Assembly: GCA_015068245.1 (NCBI GenBank)
Contig: SVKU01000004.1
Location: forward strand, 1-64,000
DNA length: 64,000 nt
Source of the DNA: Oscillospiraceae bacterium
GTDB taxonomy: Bacteria > Bacillota > Clostridia > Oscillospirales > Oscillospiraceae
Direction: 5' to 3'
Position numbers and translations under genes: made by a program. This document shows, in pieces, positions 45,206 to 58,619 of the stretch (the stretch's first letter is position 1; each line of letters begins with the position of its first letter). Below the pieces are notes generated by a model, which saw nothing but the letters and a program-made list of their open reading frames with translations, searched no databases and was not told the DNA's origin.

Positions 45206-45224
45206 ACAAAATTCCCGGCATTAG

Positions 45225-45536
45225 GAGGTTGCGAAAATCCCTTTCCGCAACCTCCAATGATATTTTCCCTGACGGGAAAGTGGAATATTTCCGTTGGAAA
45301 TGTGAAATATTGCTGACGCGATGTGATATATGCCTGCGGCATGTTGATGTATCACTTCGTGATGATTTGAATTTAAAAGGACGATATCCTCGGATATCGT
45401 CCTTTTCATCAATATTTTCGCAGAAAATATATCACAGGCGAAGCCTATATCACACGCTATCGGCGTATATCACAGATTTGCAAAGCAAATCTATATCGCT
45501 GGGAGTTGGTCATATCCCTATGACCAACTCCCTTTT
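45225..45536 (+). repeat. Hairpin-array element, copy 2
   Basis: About twelve stem-loops in a row: a GGAGGTTGCG/CGCAACCTCC opener; TCCC-TGAC-GGGA; ATTTCC/GGAAAT; TATGCC/GGCAT; ATCAC-TTC-GTGAT. A central AAGGACGATATCC/GGATATCGTCCTT follows, then ATTTTC-GCA-GAAAAT; AGGC-GAA-GCCT; CGC/GCG; AGATTTGC-AAA-GCAAATCT; and a closing GGGAGTTGGTCATA/TATGACCAACTCCC. Spacers are GTGATATAT before and ATATCAC after the centre. It starts 20 bases after the VanW-domain stop. Confidence 0.85.
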
Positions 45537-45549
45537 GGAGCCGATTTTT

Positions 45550-45713: not shown

Positions 45714-47063
45714 TTACTTTTCAAACTTGATGGCGGGCTGGCCGTCACGGGTGGGCAGAGCAACAGAGAATTCACATTCCTGGAAGATGTTGCCGTCCAG
45801 ATCCTCACACCATGCGGTGAGCATGACCATATGGTCGCCGGTATCTTCGTCGATAAACTTTTCGGTGACGTAGGCCTTGCAGATAGCGCAGTCGGGGCCG
45901 GCACCGTGGGTGTTGATGAATTTGCCTGCTTCCTTCAGATAAGGAACCTTCAGCAGCCAGCTGGGACGGAAATGATCCTCAGGGAAGTGGTTAAACTGCT
46001 CTTCGGGCTTGTAGTCGTTGACCATTCTCCAGCCCACCTTGCGGACGAAACCGTCGTCGCCGCACCAGTTGGTGATGGTGCGCAGGCAGAAGTTACGGCC
46101 GATGAAGTTCAGGAAGTGAGTACGGTTGTCTTTCTGGACGTCGATAACACCGTCTTCTCTCTTATAGAAGCGGCGTTCAACGCGCTTGCCCATGACATAA
46201 TCCTTAACGGTGTCACCGGACAGGGTGCCAACAGTGTGGTGCATGCCGGTGTAACGGCCTGCATCGTAGTCGGTGATGGGGTTTTCTGCGGTGGGCAGAG
46301 GCTCGTCGCCCACATTGACGTCTTCCCAGTACAGAGTCTCTTTGCCGCGGATCTTTTCGTTTGCCCAGATGCCCTTCAGGATCTCCCAGTCGGCATCGGT
46401 GTAGACGTGGGCGGGACGGACATAGCGTTCGGTGCGGCTGCCCATGTTGGCCTTCATCAGCTCCTGACGTACCTGCATGATCTCGTCACGGGTCTTGGGG
46501 TCGTTGCCATCGGCAAACTTGTGCAGGAAGGTGGGCCAATGGAATACGCCGCGGGCTACCAGCTTGCCCTTCTGGTTGTACATTTCGGTGGTTATAACAC
46601 GGATAAAGTAACGGATGGTGGAGCCGTCGACCGTAAGGTCGGTGCATTCCTGACCAACGATCTTGGTTGTAAAGCTGTCGCCTGCGAAGATGGGCTGATA
46701 GTAATAAAGCTCGAAGTCATAACCGTCGCCCAGCATGGGAGTGGAGGGAGGGAAGGCTTCCCAACCCAGTTCTGCGGGGAACATGGACATGCCCATAGGC
46801 TCTCTCATGGCGGGCATAGCGGGAACATCGCCGTACCAGGTGTCTTTGGCGTAGCTGTAATCGTACCACAGGGGGTTGTCTTTATCCCAGCCCTTGGCAT
46901 ACCAGTACATTTCGAAACCGGAAACCACGTCGTAGTCCTTGGGCTGACCAACACCGACGGGCATAGCGGGGAAAGAAGGGCCTTCCAGCTTGCGCCATGC
47001 GTCAAGAGCGGCCTGCTCTTCGGGAGTGTAGACATTGCGCTTAAAAGTCATAAGTTCTCTCAT
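45714..47063 (-). CDS. MaoC/FAS1-like double hot-dog hydratase-dehydratase
   Basis: The 449-residue protein starts at ATG 47063 behind AAGGAGG (a TTG one codon earlier is also in frame). It contains two hot-dog-like halves. The first has SFPAMPVGVG and PMLGDGYDFELYYYQPIFAGDSFTT, as in FAS1-like dehydratase (MaoC N-terminal) domains. The second begins with YWEDVNVGDEPLP, the usual MaoC opening. Such proteins hydrate or dehydrate enoyl-CoA-type or related compounds. The usual catalytic D-x5-H segment of MaoC is not clear, so activity is uncertain. It diverges from a cupin-SDR gene pair, suggesting one pathway. Confidence 0.78.
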   Translation of the reverse strand: MRELMTFKRNVYTPEEQAALDAWRKLEGPSFPAMPVGVGQPKDYDVVSGFEMYWYAKGWDKDNPLWYDYSYAKDTWYGDVPAMPAMREPMGMSMFPAELGWEAFPPSTPMLGDGYDFELYYYQPIFAGDSFTTKIVGQECTDLTVDGSTIRYFIRVITTEMYNQKGKLVARGVFHWPTFLHKFADGNDPKTRDEIMQVRQELMKANMGSRTERYVRPAHVYTDADWEILKGIWANEKIRGKETLYWEDVNVGDEPLPTAENPITDYDAGRYTGMHHTVGTLSGDTVKDYVMGKRVERRFYKREDGVIDVQKDNRTHFLNFIGRNFCLRTITNWCGDDGFVRKVGWRMVNDYKPEEQFNHFPEDHFRPSWLLKVPYLKEAGKFINTHGAGPDCAICKAYVTEKFIDEDTGDHMVMLTAWCEDLDGNIFQECEFSVALPTRDGQPAIKFEK

Positions 47064-47108
47064 CAATATTTTCCTCCTTGTTGAGTATGTTTAGGATTCA
47101 ACGTAATA

Positions 47109-47137
47109 ATTGTATCATGTTCGATTTACCTTGTAAA
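47109..47137 (-). promoter_or_regulatory. Promoter of the MaoC-like gene
   Basis: Minus strand TTTACA (47137-47132), 17 bases, TACAAT (47114-47109). Confidence 0.6.
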
Positions 47138-47211
47138 TGTTTCTATTGTGATATTGTGATAAATTTTGGGTATTTGGGTAATGGTGGAAGTTTATTTTGG
47201 CTGCGAATGCT

Positions 47212-47239
47212 TGACATTCCCGGGCAATATGATAAACTG
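47212..47239 (+). promoter_or_regulatory. Promoter of the cupin gene
   Basis: TTGACA (47212-47217), 16 bases, TAAACT (47234-47239); divergent from the MaoC-like promoter with about 75 bases between the -35 boxes. Confidence 0.5.
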
Positions 47240-47284
47240 TATGTTGGAATAAAATTTAAAGCTTACGAAAGGAAGTTTAATCTC

Positions 47285-47665
47285 ATGGCAAAGTATCTGA
47301 TCCAGAGAGCCAAGGGCGTTGAAGGCAGCACTATCTACACCTACACCGCTCCCGGCCACAATGAATGCGTATGCACCCGTCTGTTCGACGTCGATGGCGG
47401 CGGCGCCAACGAAATCGAAGGCGGCAAGATGATCTCCGGCATCACCTATTTCATCCCCGGCGGCGGCTGCGACTACGGCGCAAACCCCCTGGAATCCATC
47501 TACTACATTCTCGAGGGCGAAATGACCCTGAAGACTGCTGACGTAGAGACCGTTCTCCACGCCGGCGATGCTTTCCATTGCGTTGGCGGCGTAGAAAAGT
47601 CCGTCACCAATACCGGCACCACCGTCTGCAAGATGCTGGTTTGCCTGCTGCCCCCCCAGAAGTAA
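47285..47665 (+). CDS. Small cupin-fold protein lacking the usual metal ligands
   Basis: The 126-residue product starts at ATG 47285 behind AAAGGAAG. It has a single cupin barrel with ITYFIPGGGCDYG, ESIYYILEGEMTL and HAGDAFHCVGGVEKSVTNTG. In the first cupin motif the glutamate is present but the HxH pair is replaced (CDYGANPLE), and PxGxxH of the second motif is absent. A metal-dependent dioxygenase role is therefore unlikely; sensing, isomerase or binding roles remain possible. It is 118 bases ahead of an SDR gene in the same direction. Confidence 0.8.
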   Translation: MAKYLIQRAKGVEGSTIYTYTAPGHNECVCTRLFDVDGGGANEIEGGKMISGITYFIPGGGCDYGANPLESIYYILEGEMTLKTADVETVLHAGDAFHCVGGVEKSVTNTGTTVCKMLVCLLPPQK

Positions 47666-47783
47666 TTGATAGGCATTTGGTGATTCATCAATTACCTTAG
47701 GATTCCTTCTAACCTACATTTATGTATCCATTTCCGCTTATCGGATTTGAATATCAGTTAAATCTAATAAAGGAGATAATATT

Positions 47784-48671
47784 ATGCCCAGCAAAGTATA
47801 TTCTGGCGATCTGACCAAGATGTTCGACATCAGCGGCAAGAAGGCTGCTATCGTCGGCGGCGCCGGCGGCTTCGGCAAAGCTATCGCTATTGCTTACGCT
47901 GCCAATGGCGTAGACGTTATCATTTCTTCCCGTAAGGAAGAAGCTCTGAAGGCTGCCTGCGAAGAGATCAAGGCTGCTGCCGCTCCCGGCGTTAAGGTTA
48001 CTTACTACGCCTGCGACGCTACCGATGAACAGGCTGTCATCGCTTTCCGTGACTACACCGTCAGCGCTGAAGGCCTCGGCGGCGTAGATATCCTTGTTTG
48101 CTCTCAGGGTTACAACAAGAAGATGTGGTCCTGGGAAATCGACACTTCCGTTTGGAAGGGCATGCTCGACACCAACGTAACCTCCATGATGTACTGCTGC
48201 AAGTACTTCGGCAACTGGATGAAGGAAAACAACCTTCCCGAAGGCGTTGCAAAGGTTGATCCTGCTGATTACGTTTCCGGCCAGGCTACTCCCAACGAAG
48301 GCTACGGCAAGATCATCACCATCGGCTCCGTCCGTGGTATCCGTGCTGTCGCCAACGGCGGTAACGGCAACGTTCCCTACAACACCACCAAGGGTGCTGT
48401 TGAAATGCTGACCAAGGCTTTCGCCTGCGACCTGCGTCCCAACGTTCAGGTCAACAGCATTGGCCCCACCATCACCTACACTCCCATGATGGTCGGCCTT
48501 CTGCCCCCCGATGAAGCTACCCGCGACAACATCGCCGCTGGTCAGCCCGCAAAGCGTATCGGCCGCGAGATCGACATCGTTGGTACTGCTCTGTACCTCG
48601 CTGCTCCCGCTTCCGACTTCGTTACCGGTTACACCATTTATCCCGACGGCGGTCTTACCAACGTCAGCTGA
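47784..48671 (+). CDS. Short-chain dehydrogenase/reductase
   Basis: The 295-residue enzyme has the cofactor motif VGGAGGFGKAIA (24-35) and catalytic S182, Y199 and K203 (YNTTK). It has the C-terminal SDR ending ASDFVTGYTIYPDGG, seen in FabG-like classical SDRs, with an insertion near 130-170. It should oxidise or reduce a hydroxyl/keto group with NAD(P). Strongly biased codons (many GCT, AAG, GGC) suggest high expression. The ATG follows AAAGGAG. It is followed by the third hairpin-array element. Confidence 0.92.
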   Translation: MPSKVYSGDLTKMFDISGKKAAIVGGAGGFGKAIAIAYAANGVDVIISSRKEEALKAACEEIKAAAAPGVKVTYYACDATDEQAVIAFRDYTVSAEGLGGVDILVCSQGYNKKMWSWEIDTSVWKGMLDTNVTSMMYCCKYFGNWMKENNLPEGVAKVDPADYVSGQATPNEGYGKIITIGSVRGIRAVANGGNGNVPYNTTKGAVEMLTKAFACDLRPNVQVNSIGPTITYTPMMVGLLPPDEATRDNIAAGQPAKRIGREIDIVGTALYLAAPASDFVTGYTIYPDGGLTNVS

Positions 48672-48703
48672 TTTGTATTACATACATCAAAACCACGCTC
48701 TTT

Positions 48704-49016
48704 GGAGGCTGCGAAAAGGGATTTTCGCAGCCTCCAATGATATTTTCCCTGACGGGAAAGTGATATATTTCCTCCGGAAATGTGAAATATTGCTGACGCA
48801 ATGTGATATATGCCTGCGGCATATTGATGTAGCACTTCGTGATGATTTGAATTTAAAAGGACGATATCCGAGGATATCGTCCTTTTCATCAATATTTTCG
48901 CAGAAAATATATCACAGGCGAAGCCTATATCACACGCTATCGGCGTATATCACAGATTTGCTTCGCAAATCTATTTCTCAGGGAGTTGGTCATATTCCTA
49001 TGACCAACTCCCTTTT
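48704..49016 (+). repeat. Hairpin-array element, copy 3
   Basis: Same series of hairpins as 45225-45536, about 90% alike. The opener is GGAGGCTGCG/CGCAGCCTCC here against GGAGGTTGCG/CGCAACCTCC there, so both sides of the stem changed together. The AGATTTGC/GCAAATCT hairpin has loop TTC instead of AAA. It starts 33 bases after the SDR stop. The gap from 49017 to the next gene holds AT-rich sequence and the promoter at 49083. Confidence 0.85.
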
Positions 49017-49082
49017 CGAGCCTGGTTTTTTGTTGCTCGCAGTCAAAGGCAGACCTGTTAATTGTTAACTGCTAATTATGCC

Positions 49083-49184: not shown

Positions 49185-49412
49185 ATGAAAGAACAGATTC
49201 TCGATATCCTTGAAGGCATTCACCCTGAAATAGATTACGAAACCGAAGAAAGTCTCATCACCGACGGCCTGCTGGATTCTTTCGCTATCGTTTCCATCAT
49301 CAACGCTCTGAACGAGGAGTTCGGCATCGAAGTCACCATCGGTGAACTGCGCCCCGAAAACCTCAACTCCGTGGACAACATGGTTGCTCTTGTTGAGCGT
49401 CTGATGGACTGA
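49185..49412 (+). CDS. Acyl/aminoacyl carrier protein (DltC-like)
   Basis: The 75-residue carrier protein starts at ATG 49185 behind GGAGGA. The phosphopantetheine site is S32 in DGLLDSFAIV, where DSF rather than DSL is common in DltC-type carriers; EFGIEV and RPENLNSVDNMV complete the helix pattern. It would hold the activated group as a thioester. It is the first gene of a five-gene operon and lies one base before the adenylating ligase gene. Confidence 0.9.
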   Translation: MKEQILDILEGIHPEIDYETEESLITDGLLDSFAIVSIINALNEEFGIEVTIGELRPENLNSVDNMVALVERLMD

Positions 49413-49413
49413 T

Positions 49414-50931
49414 ATGTATAACCTGCTTGAATACCTGGAGCAGACTGCCGGTCGGTTCCCGGACAAGACAGCCTTTGAGGACGTAAACGGCGCCGTGACC
49501 TATGGTCAGCTGATGCAGAGGGCAAAGGCTGCCGGTACTGCTATTGCTGCGGTCACGCCTCCCGGCAAAGCCGTGGCGGTATGCATGGAAAAGAGCGTGG
49601 ACGCAGTAACTGCGTTCATGGCTGCCCTGTACGCCGGCTGCTTCTACTGCTTTGTGGATCCCAAGCAGCCTGCTGCCAGAAACATAGCCATGCTTCAGCC
49701 TGTTGAGCCTGCTGTGGTTCTCTATAACGACAGCGGCAAAAAAGCCGCAGGTTTTCTGGAAATGAATGCGCTGGACATCAGTCAGCTTGTGGAAACAGAA
49801 CCCGACGAGGCTGTGCTTGCAGTCATTCGCCGCCGTCACATCGACCTTGACCCGGCATACTGCAGCTTTACCTCCGGCTCCACCGGTACGCCCAAGGGAG
49901 TATTGGTGAGCCATCGGTCGGTTATAGATTTTATCGACGTTTTTGTGCCCCTGTTCGGCATATCCGACGCCGATGTTTTGGCATGCCAGTCACCCTTTGA
50001 CTTCGATGTGTCTGTCAAGGACATCTATTCCTGCCTTAAAACCGGTGCGTCCTGTTTTTTGATACCGAAATACTATTTCGTATTCCTGCCAAACCTGCTG
50101 GAAATGATGACTGAGAAGAAGGTCACGACCCTTATCTGGGCGGTGTCCGCTCTTTGTATGCTCTCCGAGCGTGACGCTCTGGAATTCCAGACACCTCCGT
50201 GCATCAACAAGATTCTTTTCAGCGGCGAGGTCATGCCCCCCAGTCATCTGCTGACATGGAAACGGTATTATCCTCAGGCTAAGTTCGTCAACCTCTACGG
50301 TCCCACGGAGATAACCTGCAACTGTACATACCATATCCTGCCGCAGGACTATTCCGGCGGAGAGATACCTATGGGTCTGCCGTTCCCCAATGAGCGGGTG
50401 TTCCTGCTGAGGGACGACGGCACCGAGGTTACCGATCCCGGCGAAGCCGGCGAGATCTGCGTTGCAGGCACAGCTGTGGCTCTGGGTTACTGCGGACTGC
50501 CCGAACGGACGGAGGAAGCCTTTGTAAACGATCCGCTGACGACCCTGTGGAACAGCCGTATATACAAAACCGGCGACATGGCACGATACGGTGACGACGG
50601 TCTTATGTACTATTCCGGCCGACGTGACCATCAGATCAAGCGTCACGGTCGGCGAGTGGAGCTGGCGGAAATAGACCGTGCGCTCCACAGCATAGACGGT
50701 GTTGCGCGAGCATGTACGGTGTATATCAAAGAAAGCCAGACTCTTGTGGCATTCCTGTCCGGAAATGAGCCTGAACGCAAGGTTTTTGCAAAGACTCTTG
50801 CTAAACTGCTGCCGGACTATATGATGCCCGACGAGAACATCTGGCAGGAGTCTCTGCCCCTGAACGCCCACGGAAAAATCGACCGTTCCGCTCTTACCAA
50901 ATCTTATCTTGAAGGAAAAGAAAATGGATAA
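49414..50931 (+). CDS. Amino-acid adenylating ligase (DltA-like AMP-forming enzyme)
   Basis: The 505-residue stand-alone adenylation domain has the P-loop SFTSGSTGTPKGV, NLYGPTE, YKTGDMARY and the C-terminal HGKIDR lysine. Length and order match DltA, which charges D-alanine onto DltC. The pocket-forming segments (SPFDFDVSVKDIYSCL, GEVMPPSHLL) resemble DltA but are not identical. Another amino acid or a carboxylic acid is possible. It is translationally coupled to both neighbours: 1-base gap upstream, 8-base overlap downstream. Confidence 0.88.
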   Translation: MYNLLEYLEQTAGRFPDKTAFEDVNGAVTYGQLMQRAKAAGTAIAAVTPPGKAVAVCMEKSVDAVTAFMAALYAGCFYCFVDPKQPAARNIAMLQPVEPAVVLYNDSGKKAAGFLEMNALDISQLVETEPDEAVLAVIRRRHIDLDPAYCSFTSGSTGTPKGVLVSHRSVIDFIDVFVPLFGISDADVLACQSPFDFDVSVKDIYSCLKTGASCFLIPKYYFVFLPNLLEMMTEKKVTTLIWAVSALCMLSERDALEFQTPPCINKILFSGEVMPPSHLLTWKRYYPQAKFVNLYGPTEITCNCTYHILPQDYSGGEIPMGLPFPNERVFLLRDDGTEVTDPGEAGEICVAGTAVALGYCGLPERTEEAFVNDPLTTLWNSRIYKTGDMARYGDDGLMYYSGRRDHQIKRHGRRVELAEIDRALHSIDGVARACTVYIKESQTLVAFLSGNEPERKVFAKTLAKLLPDYMMPDENIWQESLPLNAHGKIDRSALTKSYLEGKENG

Positions 50932-52081
50932 CGCCCGACTTTTGGATATTGCAAATGAATTTGGCACTCCTTCATACGTTCTTGATGCGGAAAGTTTTGC
51001 CGAAAGATGTGCTTTGGTTGATAAAGCTATCGGTCAGGACGCAAAGCTGTGCTTCTGTGTCAAAGCCGGAGGTTTTCTGCTGCACTGCCTGCCGGAAACG
51101 GTGAAAGCGCTTGAGGTTTGCTCTCCCGGAGAACTGGAGCTTTGCAAAAGAGCCGGTATAGACCCGAAAATGATAGTGTTTTCCGGACTGGTAAAGACCG
51201 AAAAGAGCATATCCGACGCCGTTGACTTCGGCGTGGGCATACTTACTGTCGAAAGCCTTGGTCAGCTGAAGCTGATAAATGCTGAAGGTCTGCGCAGAGG
51301 TCAGGTTCTGCCTGTTCTGCTGCGGCTTACAGCGGGCGACCAGTTCGGCATGGACGAAAGCGAAGTGCGTTTTGCCGCAGAAAACAGGGACAGGTATCCC
51401 GGTGTTTCCATGGACGGTCTGCACTATTTTTCCGGCACTCAGAAGAACAAGCCCGCCAAAATCGAAAAAGAGCTGGCATATGTAACGGAGTTTGCCGACG
51501 GATTGAGCCGGGATTTTGGTTTTGAAACAAAACGGCTGGAATTCGGGCCGGGATTATTCTCCGACTATTTCGGCACTGACGCCGATGCTTCCGAAGCAAC
51601 TGTGCTGGAGCAGTGCCGGGAAGCAATTCACCGTGCGGCTTCACGCTTTGAGCTTACCATAGAGCTTGGTCGTTTCCTTGCGGCCTCCTGCGGCACTTAC
51701 CTTACCAAAGTATTGGAAGTTAAAGATAACCATTCCGGCCGATATGCCATAATCGACGGCGGAACTCATCAGATAAATTACGACGGTCAGATACTCGGTC
51801 TGCGTGTACCTCCCGTGTCGGTGCTTTCCGGCGGAGGAGAGACTGAGCAATACACCGTGTGCGGCAGCCTGTGCGCCATAAGCGACAGACTTTTCCAGCA
51901 CGCTCAGCTTCCCGGCGTAAAAGAAGGGGATATTCTGGCGTTTCACAGGGCAGGAGCCTATGGCGTCACCGAAGGCAAGGCACTGTTTCTCAGCCGTGAA
52001 CTGCCCCGGGTGGTTCTGGCAAAGGGCGGAGACAGCTTTTTGCTTCGGGACTTTATCCCCACAGACCCCTTTAACGCATAA
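50924..52081 (+). CDS. PLP-dependent decarboxylase, fold III (DAP/Orn/Arg decarboxylase family)
   Basis: The 385-residue product starts at ATG 50924, overlapping the ligase stop. The PLP lysine is K47 in FCVKAGG. Later family motifs are present: LHYFSGTQ (the HIGSQ position), ELGRFLAASCGTYL (the EPGR position), GSLCAISD (catalytic C-x3-D) and HRAGAYG. It should decarboxylate an amino acid or an amino acid derivative. This gene is foreign to ordinary dlt operons. A comparable ligase-decarboxylase-carrier trio is known from exosortase-linked polysaccharide loci (TIGR03098/TIGR03099), supporting a polymer-modification role. A racemase role cannot be excluded. Confidence 0.85.
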   Translation: MDNARLLDIANEFGTPSYVLDAESFAERCALVDKAIGQDAKLCFCVKAGGFLLHCLPETVKALEVCSPGELELCKRAGIDPKMIVFSGLVKTEKSISDAVDFGVGILTVESLGQLKLINAEGLRRGQVLPVLLRLTAGDQFGMDESEVRFAAENRDRYPGVSMDGLHYFSGTQKNKPAKIEKELAYVTEFADGLSRDFGFETKRLEFGPGLFSDYFGTDADASEATVLEQCREAIHRAASRFELTIELGRFLAASCGTYLTKVLEVKDNHSGRYAIIDGGTHQINYDGQILGLRVPPVSVLSGGGETEQYTVCGSLCAISDRLFQHAQLPGVKEGDILAFHRAGAYGVTEGKALFLSRELPRVVLAKGGDSFLLRDFIPTDPFNA

Positions 52082-52102
52082 AAACAAAAGGCGATATAAA
52101 CA

Positions 52103-53680
52103 ATGTTGATTTCAACCTTTACGTTTTTCTTTTTTGTAATAGCAGTATTCATATTGTATTTCATCTTCCCCAAAAACTGGCGGTGGGTAGTGCTTCTGGC
52201 CTCCAGTGTGGTTTTCTATGCCTCCATGGATCTGAGGTATTTCCTGTTTATTGGCATAACGGCAGTTTCTGCCTATTTTACAGCCATCGATCAGCACAGG
52301 CTGAACCTGCAGCGTGACGAAACGCTGCAGCGCCTGACAGACAGGGAAGAAAAAAAGGCTGCCCGTGCAGCATTCAAGACTAAAAAACGCAGGCATGTAG
52401 GTGCGTGTATTGCCCTGAATTTCGGCATACTTATCGTTTTGAAATACACCTACCTGTTTACGGGCGAATTTGCACCTCCCGCATTTTTCTCCAACGAAGC
52501 GGGAACCGGACTGCTGCTGCCGCTGGGCATTTCGTTTTACACCTTCCAGACCGTTGGATACCTTGTGGACGTTTATAACGGCAAGGTTCAGCCGGAACGT
52601 AACTTTGCGAAGTTTGCCCTGTTCGTATCTTTCTTCCCCCAGATAATCCAGGGCCCCATCAGCCGCTTTGACCAGCTGGCACCTCAGCTTTACGAGGGAC
52701 ATGACTTTGATTTCGACAGAATGAAATCCGGTCTGGAACTGGTGCTTTGGGGATATATGAAAAAGCTGGTCATTGCCGACCTGACCTTTGCCTTTGTGTG
52801 GGAGATAGTCTGCGATTACCAGGACTGCTCCGGCACAGCCATAGTGTTTGCCATGCTGCTTTACAGTGCCCGCGGTTTTGCAGACTTTTCCGGCGGCATC
52901 GACATCATGCGCGGCATCTGTGAGGTGATGGGCATAACCCTGCCGGCAAACTTCCGTCAGCCTTACCTGTCCCGTTCCCTTTCAGAGTTCTGGCGCCGCT
53001 GGCATATCACTCTGGGCGAATGGTTCAAGGATTATGTGTTCTTCCCGCTGGCAACCTCCAAGCCATACAACGCCCTTGGCAGACTGCTGCGGAAGAAGTT
53101 CAGCCGCAAGACCTCCGACAGGGTATGTACATCGGTGGTGTCCCTTATAACCTTTGTGCTTATAGGTATGTGGCACGGCAACAGCTGGGGATATGTTGTC
53201 TACGGTTTCTGGCACGGTCTTATCATTGCCGTTTCCACCATGTTGACCGACGCGTTCCCGGTAATATACAAAAAGCTGCATATCAACCCCGAAAGCTGGT
53301 ACTGGAAAATCTTCCAGGTGGTGCGTACATATATCCTGGTTGTCATGGGGCTGTACCTTGTGCTGCCTCTGAACTGGCTGGACGGTGTCGAAATGCTGAA
53401 AATGAGCTTTATGGGCCCGTTCCAGGAGCTTAGCACCCTGCGAAGCGTGCTGACCAAGTATCATTTCTTCCGGGAGTTCCCGGTGGTCATGTATGGCATA
53501 GCGGTCATGGTGCTGTCTGCCATCCCTTCGGCATTCGGCATCAACCTGCGGGAAAAGCTGAATAAGCTGCCGTTCCCGATCCAGTGGGTGATACTCATTG
53601 CAGGCATCCTCTATGTGTGCGTTTTCGGCGCATACGGCGATGCCTACGATGCAACGTCCTTCATCTATCAGGTGTTCTAG
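52103..53680 (+). CDS. MBOAT O-acyltransferase (DltB/AlgI-like)
   Basis: The 525-residue polytopic membrane protein has about 11-12 hydrophobic segments. It has the MBOAT features LSEFWRRWHITLGEWFKDYV and the conserved-histidine segment IGMWHGNSWGYVVYGFWHG. It would move the carrier-bound group across, or at, the membrane to an extracellular hydroxyl. Length (about 500) is nearer AlgI/PatA than Bacillus DltB (about 400). The Lys/Arg-rich cytoplasmic stretch near 70-100 (DREEKKAARAAFKTKKRR) may contact the carrier protein. It is 21 bases behind the decarboxylase gene. Confidence 0.93.
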   Translation: MLISTFTFFFFVIAVFILYFIFPKNWRWVVLLASSVVFYASMDLRYFLFIGITAVSAYFTAIDQHRLNLQRDETLQRLTDREEKKAARAAFKTKKRRHVGACIALNFGILIVLKYTYLFTGEFAPPAFFSNEAGTGLLLPLGISFYTFQTVGYLVDVYNGKVQPERNFAKFALFVSFFPQIIQGPISRFDQLAPQLYEGHDFDFDRMKSGLELVLWGYMKKLVIADLTFAFVWEIVCDYQDCSGTAIVFAMLLYSARGFADFSGGIDIMRGICEVMGITLPANFRQPYLSRSLSEFWRRWHITLGEWFKDYVFFPLATSKPYNALGRLLRKKFSRKTSDRVCTSVVSLITFVLIGMWHGNSWGYVVYGFWHGLIIAVSTMLTDAFPVIYKKLHINPESWYWKIFQVVRTYILVVMGLYLVLPLNWLDGVEMLKMSFMGPFQELSTLRSVLTKYHFFREFPVVMYGIAVMVLSAIPSAFGINLREKLNKLPFPIQWVILIAGILYVCVFGAYGDAYDATSFIYQVF

Positions 53681-53692
53681 GAGGGCGATAAT

Positions 53693-54724
53693 ATGAAGAA
53701 AAAACATAATTTCATACGGGCAACGGCTTTTGTTGTCCTGACCCTGTCCATACTTGCGATTGTCGGCAGAGCCATCAGCAGTCTTGCGGTAAACGACCAT
53801 ATGCTTTGGCGTCTTTCGGGGTTCTACCTTGAAAAAAGAGAGAGCCTTGATGCGGTTATAGTTGGCCCCAGTGCCACTTACGCCTATTGGGAGCCTACCA
53901 CCGCATGGGAAGAATACGGCATAGCTGTTTATCCCTATTCAACAGCCCAGCAGCCCCTTTCGTCCACAAGGTTTGTCCTTGAGGAATGCCGCAAAACCCA
54001 ACCGGACGCACTGTTCGTGATCAACATTAACCTGTTTTTGATGGAGGGCGTCACGCCTGCACAGATCCACTTCCTGTCGGACATTATGCCGCCGTCGCTG
54101 AACCGACACAGAATGATACAGTACATGGCAGAAAAGGGTGAATACGACAGCCCATATCAGCTGCTTGAGTTCTATCAGCCTGTGTTTGCCATGCACAGTC
54201 GATGGAAACGGGCACATTTGCCGTCGAAACACACCAGTGGCTTCGGCTGCAAGGGAGCTTCCCTTGACCCTCAGTTCATCAAAGGTTCAGAGGACGTTAC
54301 GGGACTGTTTGTTGAAAACGAGGAAAGGCTGCCCATTTCCGAAGACGCCATCTATGAGTTGGAACTTCTGTTTGACTATATAGAAGAAAACGACGTGGAA
54401 GTCTGCTTTTTCTATTCTCCCGCAGTGGTCAGCTATGACGTGATACCTTACATGAACACGCTTATCGACTATATCCGTGACGCCGGCTACACGCTTTACG
54501 ACGGTGCGGCGAACTTTGAGGAAACGGGCCTGTATCCGCCGACGGATTATATGGACCGCTCCCACACCAACCTCAGCGGTGCCATCAAGTTTACCAAATG
54601 GCTTGGGGGCAAGCTGGTGGAGGATTACGGATTTGAGGACAAGCGGGGTGACCCGGACTATAAGTCCTGGGACGATTCCGTTGAGCATTACGACAGAATT
54701 GCAAGAATAATCGGATTCCAATAA
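53693..54724 (+). CDS. Membrane-anchored SGNH-like protein (DltD/AlgX-type role)
   Basis: The 343-residue protein has an N-terminal membrane anchor (about 8-30) and then an extracellular domain. It shows an SGNH-type nucleophile region VGPSATYAYWEP (S60) and a late DRSH (D288, H291) in MDRSHTNLSGAIKFTKWL. These match the catalytic triad order of GDSL/SGNH hydrolases and the AlgX/AlgJ/DltD partners that accept acyl groups from MBOAT proteins. It is 12 bases behind the MBOAT gene and ends the operon at a strong terminator. The family call rests on these motifs only. Confidence 0.78.
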   Translation: MKKKHNFIRATAFVVLTLSILAIVGRAISSLAVNDHMLWRLSGFYLEKRESLDAVIVGPSATYAYWEPTTAWEEYGIAVYPYSTAQQPLSSTRFVLEECRKTQPDALFVININLFLMEGVTPAQIHFLSDIMPPSLNRHRMIQYMAEKGEYDSPYQLLEFYQPVFAMHSRWKRAHLPSKHTSGFGCKGASLDPQFIKGSEDVTGLFVENEERLPISEDAIYELELLFDYIEENDVEVCFFYSPAVVSYDVIPYMNTLIDYIRDAGYTLYDGAANFEETGLYPPTDYMDRSHTNLSGAIKFTKWLGGKLVEDYGFEDKRGDPDYKSWDDSVEHYDRIARIIGFQ

Positions 54725-54725
54725 T

Positions 54726-54774
54726 AAACCACCACCCCTGTTGGTGCAGCGTTACTGCGCCAACAGGGGTGGTT
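54726..54774. terminator. Bidirectional terminator between dlt-like operon and XRE/ImmA island
   Basis: AAACCACCACCCCTGTTGG...CCAACAGGGGTGGTTT is a very long stem (about 17 bp plus an inner GCAG/CTGC). The flanking A/T runs are short. Confidence 0.75.
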
Positions 54775-56741: not shown

Positions 56742-58619
56742 ATGTCAAAACCTTATGTAAATGAAAATGGCAAGCTGGTTACCATGCTGGTAGACGGCGT
56801 GGAAAAGACTTATGAAGCCAATGTTCCCGGCGCAGTTTATGTTGAAACCGATCAGCTGACCGAACAGCCCTGCTCCTTCACCGCCAGAGGCATCGAGCCT
56901 TATCGTGCAGCTATCTTTGTAGGTCCCGAAGGCATTCAGGACAACATGTCTGTCAAGGCAGCTGTCAAGGGTGAGATCGGCGAAAAGGAAGCCTGCGGCA
57001 TCAAGATCGACTCCACCAGCGACAACTTCTCCGCTCTCGTGGGTGTTGGCGGTGAATACGCCATTAAGGATTCCGAACTGAATTTCGACACCAAGTCCGA
57101 CGGCAAGAACATCTGCGACTTCTCCGGCTATGGTTCCGTTATCACTGCCCTCAAGGGCTCCAAGTTCGTTGTTGAAAACACCAAGATCAAATCCGTTGGT
57201 GTTGCAAAGTGCGCCCTGTTCTCCGACAATCAGTCTCACTGCCTGTTCAAGAACTGCGACGTGGAAGTCCTCGGCGGCACCCTGTATGAAGGCTATGTAA
57301 ACTCCGCTGACCAGAAGACCATGGTTGCTCCTCCCTGGGTTCTCGGCATTTCCGGCAACGCCCGCGGCATCAACCTTGAAGGCGACCGCGGTGCAGCTAC
57401 CGTAGTCGACACCGATTTCAAGGCCAACCAGTGGGGCGTTCTGTCCACCGACTCCGGCACCAACATGCAGCTGTATGTCATCGACTCCAAGATGACTCTG
57501 CTTGGCAAGGATCCCATCCCCGCATGGGATAAGCTCGATCCCTACAGCGTAAACTACGGCTCCGGCTACGGTACTTACGTTATTGGCAACGCTCACGAAG
57601 AATTCTTCGGCGCTGATATCAAGGTCGGCACCATGTGCGCCGTTGTCCGCGGCGGTACCGCTACCTACCAGTCCTCCAAGGGCCTTATGAAGGTCACCTC
57701 TCCCGTTACCGGCGAAACCCTGTACGAAGGCGAAGGCAAGGGCAATGTCACCAAGATTTATTCCGATGTTTTCGGCTGGATGGCTCATGGCGACGGCGAA
57801 GTCAACGTCATCGACGGCACCGAAGTCGAATGCGGCGATGCTCTGTTCCTTCTGAAGTCCAACGGCGTTAACATGAATCTGGACAACTGCGTTGTCAACT
57901 CCAAGACCGGCGTTCTTGTTCAGATGATCGACGACGATGACTCCCTGGTCGGCGCAAACTTTGCAGGCGGTGCTCCCGCTTTCAATACCGAGTTCAACGA
58001 ACAGGCCGGTTGGCCCTCCGACAACGGTCTCATCACCTCCAAGATGCCTAAGGCTCCCGCAGGCGGCCCCGGTGGTCCCGGTGGTCCCGGTGGCCCCGGT
58101 GGCCCCGGTGGTCCCGGCGGAATGCCCGGTGCTCCCGGCGGCGAAGGCGGCCCCGGCCCCGGCATGAAGGAGCCCGAAAAGGCCTACAAGACCGACAAGT
58201 GCTACTTCACTGCTACCAATGTTGCTCTTAAGGGCGATATCTTCAACGGCACCGGCTACTTCGGCCAGAATGCCAAGGCTCTCGATGTTGTAGTCGGCGC
58301 AGGCGCAACTCTCGACGGCACAATTTCCGCCACCGAGTACATGCACATCAACGAAAAGGGCGAGCAGAACACCCACTTCACCATCAAGGAGTTCTACTAT
58401 CTTGGTCATGTTACCAACCGTCCCTACTTCAACGGCGACAACACTGTCGAAGTCGTTCTGAAGGACGGCGGCGTATGGAACGTCACCGGTGAAGGCATCA
58501 TCTCTGCTCTGACCGTAGGCGAAGGCTGCACCTTCAACGGCAAGGCTTCCATCGATGGCAAGGAAATTGCTATCGAAGCCGGCAAGAAATACGAAGGCGT
58601 CATCGCTATCAGCAAGTAA
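56742..58619 (+). CDS. Beta-helix-like protein with Gly-Gly-Pro tract, paralogue of 35214-37718
   Basis: The 625-residue protein has no signal peptide or membrane segment and is of unknown function. Repeating strand-turn units run through residues 60-430 and 480-625 (YAIKDSELNF, FVVENTKIKS, CLFKNCDVEVLGG, MNLDNCVVNSKTG), the look of a parallel beta-helix. A low-complexity tract at about 438-475 contains six GGP triplets followed by MPGAPGGEGGPGPG. Landmarks shared with the 834-aa protein include EPYRAA, WGVLSTD, GYGTYVIGN, LLKSNG, LVQMIDDDD and SALTVGE. Codon use is strongly biased (GCC, GGC, AAG), suggesting high expression. The start ATG follows AAGGAGG. It ends at a strong terminator. Confidence 0.78.
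   Translation: MSKPYVNENGKLVTMLVDGVEKTYEANVPGAVYVETDQLTEQPCSFTARGIEPYRAAIFVGPEGIQDNMSVKAAVKGEIGEKEACGIKIDSTSDNFSALVGVGGEYAIKDSELNFDTKSDGKNICDFSGYGSVITALKGSKFVVENTKIKSVGVAKCALFSDNQSHCLFKNCDVEVLGGTLYEGYVNSADQKTMVAPPWVLGISGNARGINLEGDRGAATVVDTDFKANQWGVLSTDSGTNMQLYVIDSKMTLLGKDPIPAWDKLDPYSVNYGSGYGTYVIGNAHEEFFGADIKVGTMCAVVRGGTATYQSSKGLMKVTSPVTGETLYEGEGKGNVTKIYSDVFGWMAHGDGEVNVIDGTEVECGDALFLLKSNGVNMNLDNCVVNSKTGVLVQMIDDDDSLVGANFAGGAPAFNTEFNEQAGWPSDNGLITSKMPKAPAGGPGGPGGPGGPGGPGGPGGMPGAPGGEGGPGPGMKEPEKAYKTDKCYFTATNVALKGDIFNGTGYFGQNAKALDVVVGAGATLDGTISATEYMHINEKGEQNTHFTIKEFYYLGHVTNRPYFNGDNTVEVVLKDGGVWNVTGEGIISALTVGEGCTFNGKASIDGKEIAIEAGKKYEGVIAISK

Follow-up and report, generated by a model that had tools for sequence, protein, structure and literature searches.

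The DNA examined here is a 64,000-nucleotide stretch of contig SVKU01000004.1 of an Oscillospiraceae gut bacterium, in the following called the window, of which positions 49185 to 54724 of the + strand are occupied by an operon encoding, in that order, a carrier protein, an adenylating ligase, a fold-III pyridoxal phosphate (PLP) decarboxylase, a membrane-bound O-acyltransferase (MBOAT) and a DltD-like SGNH protein. The first gene (49185-49412) codes for a DltC-like carrier of 75 amino acids with the phosphopantetheine site Ser32 (codon at 49278), and its ATG start is preceded by TTGGAGGAAG. It is followed, all on the same strand, by the genes of a stand-alone amino acid adenylation ligase of 505 amino acids with the catalytic Lys488 (49414-50931), the decarboxylase of 385 amino acids with the PLP-binding Lys47 (50924-52081), the MBOAT membrane acyltransferase of 525 amino acids with His301, His358 and a C-terminal acyl-shuttle motif (52103-53680) and a membrane-anchored DltD/PatB-like protein of 343 amino acids with an N-terminal helix, Ser60 and Asp288-x-x-His291 (53693-54724). 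Four of the five proteins lie above the gathering scores of Pfam, with 23.7 bits for PP-binding, 202 bits for AMP-binding, 60.6 and 49.8 bits for the N- and C-terminal domains of the ornithine/diaminopimelate (DAP)/arginine decarboxylases and 40.4 bits for MBOAT (PF03062, gathering score 27), while the SGNH-like fifth protein has no Pfam match. The borders of the operon are clear, with a stacked-hairpin repeat of about 320 bp on the upstream side and a terminator-like 19-bp hairpin after the last gene (54731-54773, + strand; -39.4 kcal/mol, z -7.5). An initial annotation of this DNA had noticed five tightly packed genes, and its open reading frames, coordinates, Ser32 and intergenic gaps of 1, -8, 21 and 12 nucleotides from the first to the fifth gene were all reproduced; its proposal that the packing makes stoichiometric action likely goes too far, as tight packing supports co-transcription but does not show stoichiometric action.

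The decarboxylase was searched for at E 1e-40 or better in 394 genomes of the same taxonomic order and was found in 17 of them, the window's genome included, with the other 16 proteins being 37-48% identical and no match falling between E 1e-73 and the threshold. The five genes all lie side by side in each of the 16 decarboxylase loci that are not cut by a contig end. The order carrier-ligase-decarboxylase-MBOAT-SGNH is that of the window, ligase-carrier-decarboxylase-MBOAT-SGNH occurs in two loci and ligase-decarboxylase-carrier-MBOAT-SGNH in the remaining ones, the carrier gene thus occupying three different positions; such reshuffling of the order, with the membership retained, argues for a joint function of the five genes. 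Equally, at least 519 stretches in GTDB encode relatives of the decarboxylase, and among the 80 best named loci, which were inspected, ligase and carrier lie beside it in 79 (the remaining locus is cut), with an MBOAT nearby as well in 63. These loci include Ruminococcus albus, Butyrivibrio sp. NC2002 and, from another phylum, the coriobacterium Slackia exigua, in which the genes are arranged as MBOAT-SGNH-ligase-decarboxylase-carrier. The five-gene unit is genuine and recurs in many gut bacteria of two phyla, among Clostridia as well as Coriobacteria, and its composition is beyond chance because it recurs in relatives with proteins only 20-50% identical. The genome search that the initial annotation had recommended has turned up the unit repeatedly and in varying orders, and the objection which it had foreseen, absence of the decarboxylase from the majority of orthologous operons, does not hold, as the 15 closest ligases in the 394 genomes (45% identity or more) are all encoded beside a decarboxylase. 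Among the neighbour clusters of 96 loci no conserved sixth gene from which the substrate could be read was found, the largest clusters being antisense open reading frames; a DPM1-like (polyprenol-type) glycosyltransferase is encoded upstream in about 10 of the 96.

Kinship with the Dlt and Pat systems

D-alanylation, which forms a labile ester, is a main way in which Gram-positive bacteria tune their surface charge and resist cationic peptides. The responsible Dlt system (DltA/DltB/DltC/DltD/DltX) has a ligase, a stand-alone carrier, an MBOAT, a membrane-anchored SGNH protein and the logic of acyl transfer in common with the window operon, which differs by its additional decarboxylase, its gene order and the pocket code of its ligase. 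None of its proteins reaches a Dlt cut-off of NCBIfam: the carrier scores 44.5 bits with its best model, DltC NF003464 (cut-off 68), the ligase 277.4 bits with NF003417 (cut-off 476) and 268.4 bits with TIGR01734 (cut-off 559.85) for DltA and the MBOAT 174.7 bits with the DltB equivalog TIGR04091 (cut-off 375), and the SGNH protein has no NCBIfam match at E 0.01, DltD TIGR04092 included. The ligase does lie above the cut-off of the nonribosomal peptide synthetase (NRPS)-type amino acid adenylation model TIGR01733 (339.2 bits, cut-off 317.4), and Ser32 of the carrier is situated in LLDS, within a LID...LDS motif conserved among relatives. A classical dltABCD is present separately in the same genome, on contig C34, with DltA, DltB and DltD above NCBIfam cut-offs; this DltA passes NF003417 with 492.5 bits (TIGR01734 is not passed), and this DltB reaches 453.8 bits with TIGR04091. 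Comparison of the ligase pocket with DltA, as the initial annotation had advised, gives DVKILSLCN for the window ligase versus DLIVFCTVF for the genome's own DltA, with the Cys of DltA at PheA position 301 replaced by Ser, and thus no D-alanine code. Because the Dlt cut-offs are missed, the pocket code differs and a separate dltABCD exists in the genome, the system is, as far as sequences can tell, dlt-like but no dlt operon. A classical dlt operon was rejected on these grounds, and the view of the initial annotation that the operon is unlike classical dlt holds, with the decarboxylase as a conserved member of the unit.

The protein classes, which match DltA to DltD, and the alanine-racemase fold of the PLP protein would also be expected from a second, ordinary D-alanylation operon whose PLP protein is a racemase or irrelevant. 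Such an operon is, however, highly improbable in a genome that has its classical dltABCD elsewhere, given the missed cut-offs, the altered code with Ser for the D-alanine pocket Cys and a decarboxylase that has kept its Cys317.

The MBOAT ends in F520-I-Y-Q-V-F525, an FXYXXF acyl-shuttle motif of which the Tyr and the final Phe are invariant in 17 of 17 sequences compared, and the remaining non-classical MBOATs of this genome likewise end in an FXYXXF-like motif. In PatA a C-terminal FXYXXF-like motif carries the acyl group, whereas in the Dlt system the motif is located on the separate DltX (PMC12148441). Since the MBOAT of the window ends in a shuttle motif of its own, with the shuttle Tyr fused to its C-terminus, the system would load its carrier in the manner of Dlt and shuttle the acyl group by a fused motif in the manner of PatA. 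PatA/PatB and AlgI-type MBOAT-SGNH pairs resemble it in having an SGNH partner and an MBOAT that carries a built-in FXYXXF-like shuttle at its C-terminus (PMC12148441), but take acyl-CoA as donor and have neither carrier nor ligase, the donor in the window system presumably being a carrier thioester. The AlphaFold model of the fifth protein (predicted local distance difference test score 84) has DltD (6pfx, E=6e-6) as its best fold match in the PDB, followed by PatB and further SGNH enzymes, and Ser60 and His291 are invariant among its relatives; it is a predicted DltD/PatB-like SGNH acyltransferase.

Elsewhere in the genome, a decarboxylase-free set on contig C27 (L018:4900-9650) consists of an MBOAT, an SGNH protein, a carrier 53% identical to the window carrier and a FadD-like ligase, and is situated within about 10 kb of teichoic-acid exporter-like (TagGH-like) and polymerase-like (TagF-like) genes. 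It possibly serves the carrier-dependent transfer of a non-amino acyl group.

Specificity codes of the ligase

The code of the window ligase is composed of D198, V199, K202, I241, L268, S270, L294, C302 and N303; alignments to LgrA were of use only for checking the register of the pocket, and in a fold search the ligase model matched NRPS adenylation domains as well as DltA, which gave no discrimination between the two. Decarboxylase-bearing loci show only three code types, none of which is the D-alanine code: type A, DVKxxS(L/V)CN (n=36, window included), type B, IARxxSQxS (n=53), and type C, DAKSxVLG(I/V) (n=8). Types A and B form one clade of the ligase tree (support 0.99), whose members are always accompanied by the decarboxylase, with type C apart. 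Twenty further loci with weaker ligases, most of which have ligase, carrier and MBOAT, contain no decarboxylase in any case, and their codes differ with one exception (for example DAKCxGLGM, SMxYLALDI or DLKxxGxVD). The decarboxylase therefore tracks the specificity code of the ligase, and this suggests an action on the loaded substrate. Type-A ligases have an Asp at PheA position 235 and a Lys at the PheA-239 position, and this conserved pair, of which the Lys could hold an alpha-carboxylate, is compatible with beta-linked aspartate as in VinN, in a pocket comparison based on a review (PMC11284099). Type B, in which the Asp is lost and an Arg is present, would be compatible with gamma-linked glutamate.

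In the decarboxylase tree the window decarboxylase groups with type B and C loci, whereas the window ligase groups with type A, suggesting a possible exchange of decarboxylases between operons. In five loci (L163, L166, L168, L177 and L179) a protein of about 255 amino acids is encoded between ligase and carrier, which by Pfam is a GNAT acetyltransferase in the three tested; the codes of these loci, DLKxxGxVD or DAKLFALVD, resemble NRPS glutamate codes. The GNAT acetyltransferase would be a second kind of built-in tailoring enzyme in dlt-like operons.

Type-C trios of ligase, decarboxylase and carrier are found in L059:7516-11093, L013, L081 and L096, with no neighbouring MBOAT on the strand of the trio; in L013 and L059 a hexapeptide-repeat transferase is encoded between decarboxylase and carrier, and in L059 also a histidine kinase upstream. 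With these loci in mind, a trio supplying a carrier-bound omega-aminoacyl thioester to the synthesis of a secreted metabolite or sugar nucleotide, beside an MBOAT and an SGNH protein with a different task, has to be considered for the window as well, all the more as the known BtrI/J/K and VinN/L/O trios make antibiotics. We regard such a small-molecule pathway as quite unlikely, given that MBOAT and SGNH genes accompany the trio in every uncut type-A and type-B locus sampled in the taxonomic order, in two phyla and in several gene orders, that the MBOAT carries a shuttle motif and that the neighbourhoods offer no recurrent sixth biosynthetic gene.

Decarboxylation and the proposed route of the cargo

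The decarboxylase keeps the PLP Lys47, E247-x-G-R250, Cys317...Asp321 and Tyr346, the Tyr of GAY, with K47, C317, D321 and Y346 invariant across the family. A LysA for lysine synthesis was ruled out by score (179.5 bits with TIGR01048, cut-off 297.9), by motif loss and by two other LysA-like genes in the genome: the RPxxYxAYH motif of LysA is absent from the five family members shown, as it is from BtrK and SbnH, and is kept in the two further LysA-like proteins that the genome encodes, while of the CE motif of LysA only the catalytic Cys remains. Compared with the PDB, the profile of the family scores highest with BtrK (2j66, 184.9 bits), followed by SbnH (173.8) and LysA (157); entries 6knh and 6knk we take to be SbnH, their database title being 'probable diaminopimelate decarboxylase'. 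Profile score, motif loss and context together point to a candidate BtrK-type enzyme.

In the butirosin system BtrI/BtrJ/BtrK, BtrK decarboxylates the glutamyl-S-carrier to the gamma-aminobutyric acid (GABA)-S-carrier (PMC7857480), so that a carrier and a fold-III PLP decarboxylase act together there as well, although in an antibiotic pathway with no MBOAT or SGNH protein; our comparison covers BtrK. Equally, VinN/VinL/VinO of vicenistatin form a ligase/carrier/PLP enzyme trio, in which an ANL adenylating enzyme (as also FlvN) loads (methyl)aspartate onto a stand-alone carrier and the PLP enzyme then decarboxylates it there; loading must precede decarboxylation, and VinO acts on methylaspartyl-VinL (PMC11284099). 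That trio feeds a polyketide synthase, and it is likened to the window system by description. From the parallel that the initial annotation had drawn to the exosortase-A-associated TIGR03098/TIGR03099 loci, the occurrence of a ligase and a fold-III decarboxylase within one locus stands, whereas membership in these families was ruled out, with the cut-offs widely missed (201.1 bits versus 592.35 and 169.2 versus 478.45), and BtrK with its carrier-bound decarboxylation is the better comparison. We know of no MBOAT or SGNH protein in the exosortase-A-associated loci.

To be attacked by a PLP decarboxylase while tethered to the carrier, a residue needs a free alpha-amino acid head, which requires a dicarboxylic or bis-amino acid that is attached through its opposite end. 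On balance, and as the most economical reading, the operon probably performs a carrier-dependent surface aminoacylation, with export of a cargo that has lost a carboxyl group while still on the carrier. The ligase would adenylate an amino dicarboxylic acid and thioesterify it onto the phosphopantetheine arm of Ser32 via the carboxylate distant from the amino acid head; the BtrK-like enzyme would strip the free alpha-carboxylate from the carrier-bound residue, leaving an omega-aminoacyl thioester. The MBOAT might then pass the acyl group to Tyr522 of its own C-terminal FIYQVF shuttle, from which the DltD-like SGNH protein would take it on Ser60 and esterify an extracellular polymer, perhaps wall teichoic acid; teichoic-acid polymerase-like and exporter-like genes are present in the genome. 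The favoured cargo would be aspartate, giving beta-alanyl, for the type-A pocket of the window, and glutamate, giving GABA-yl, for the sister type B. Given this route, aspartate/beta-alanine is for the window a tentative choice, and glutamate/GABA a rather doubtful one. The initial annotation had suggested that a non-alanine amino acid or its decarboxylated product is loaded and exported onto a polymer, and the non-D-alanine pocket and the conserved decarboxylase agree with it; on-carrier decarboxylation and the identity of cargo and acceptor are what we infer.

Several observations weigh against on-carrier decarboxylation for surface export. When only the window decarboxylase is compared, BtrK and a LysA reach similar scores, identity to BtrK amounts to only about 25%, and in the decarboxylase tree the BtrK/SbnH branch has a support of just 0.52, with the split between BtrK and LysA poorly resolved. 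The loci being related by descent, the tracking of code and decarboxylase is weaker than independent cases would be, and one locus departs from it: in genome G392 (locus L170, 72%-complete, cut locus) the code DVKIMSLCN goes with a PLP relative only 28% identical, and the ligase falls outside the type-A clade despite its type-A-like code. In the type-C loci without a neighbouring MBOAT a non-surface use is possible. Finally, the conserved Asp at PheA 235 normally binds the alpha-amine beside the activated carboxylate, and in type A it would leave the decarboxylase no free alpha-carboxylate, except where the amine sits in beta position to the activated carboxylate, as reportedly in the VinN structure.

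The sequence of steps might also be inverted, with the decarboxylase first acting on a free amino acid such as aspartate, glutamate or DAP, the ligase then loading the product and MBOAT and SGNH protein exporting it. The fold-III relatives LysA and ornithine decarboxylase do act on free amino acids, and in incednine biosynthesis loading comes only after IdnL3 has decarboxylated free beta-glutamate (PMC11284099). We nevertheless consider this order of events unlikely, as BtrK, the nearest relative of the family with a solved structure, acts on a carrier, the substrate motifs of LysA are lost here, with RPxxYxAYH retained in the genome's two other LysA-like proteins, and the pocket Lys suits an acidic substrate better than beta-alanine or GABA. 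A DAP-type bis-amino acid might also be attached through one of its ends and lose the carboxylate at the opposite one, with export of a lysyl group; an Asp198 that binds an alpha-amine and a decarboxylase from the LysA/BtrK clade would then be compatible, and Lys202 might hold the distal carboxylate. The Glu that follows the catalytic Cys of LysA and touches DAP at its distal end is lost, as is RPxxYxAYH; moreover, lysine itself could be directly loaded, and the sister type-B ligases are without the Asp, which together leave little likelihood for a lysyl cargo.

A surface aminoacylation with decarboxylation on the carrier would thus remain the favoured function. The system is real and conserved, and apparently an undescribed variant of carrier-dependent surface acylation; no earlier description of the five genes was found in the literature searched, a weak sign of novelty as subscription papers were thinly covered. 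Each half of the system has known precedents; novel is the combination and its spread. It is conceivable, though we would put this forward with caution, that the operon represents a widespread undescribed class of surface decoration that esterifies a wall polymer with an omega-amino acid, beta-alanine or GABA, formed by decarboxylation on the carrier, as one branch of a larger dlt-like radiation with varied pocket codes and tailoring enzymes (decarboxylase, GNAT acetyltransferase). If so, abundant gut Clostridia and Coriobacteria would possess a hitherto unknown layer of surface chemistry in parallel to D-alanylation, with omega-amino acid groups that are chemically different, positively charged and, by chemical reasoning, probably more stable than D-alanyl groups, and conserved ligase codes paired with tailoring enzymes might render this chemistry directly readable from sequence.

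Neighbourhood of the operon

The stacked-hairpin repeat just upstream of the operon (48700-49025) is intergenic and has a further copy in the window at 45221-45542; the genome contains about 10 near-full copies of 80-95% identity and fragments, and several copies are situated at contig ends (C1, C4 and C37). It is a MITE-like or REP-like element and, as far as the evidence goes, no functional part of the system. Between the two copies, at 45714-48671, the - strand encodes a protein of 450 amino acids with a weak FAS1-dehydratase match and the + strand a cupin and an SDR oxidoreductase, possibly a catabolic cluster. Downstream, at 56742-58619, a protein of 625 amino acids contains a collagen-like (GGP)n stretch, and on contig C27 (locus L049) a LysA-like gene is adjoined by that of a protein with a similar GGPGG stretch.

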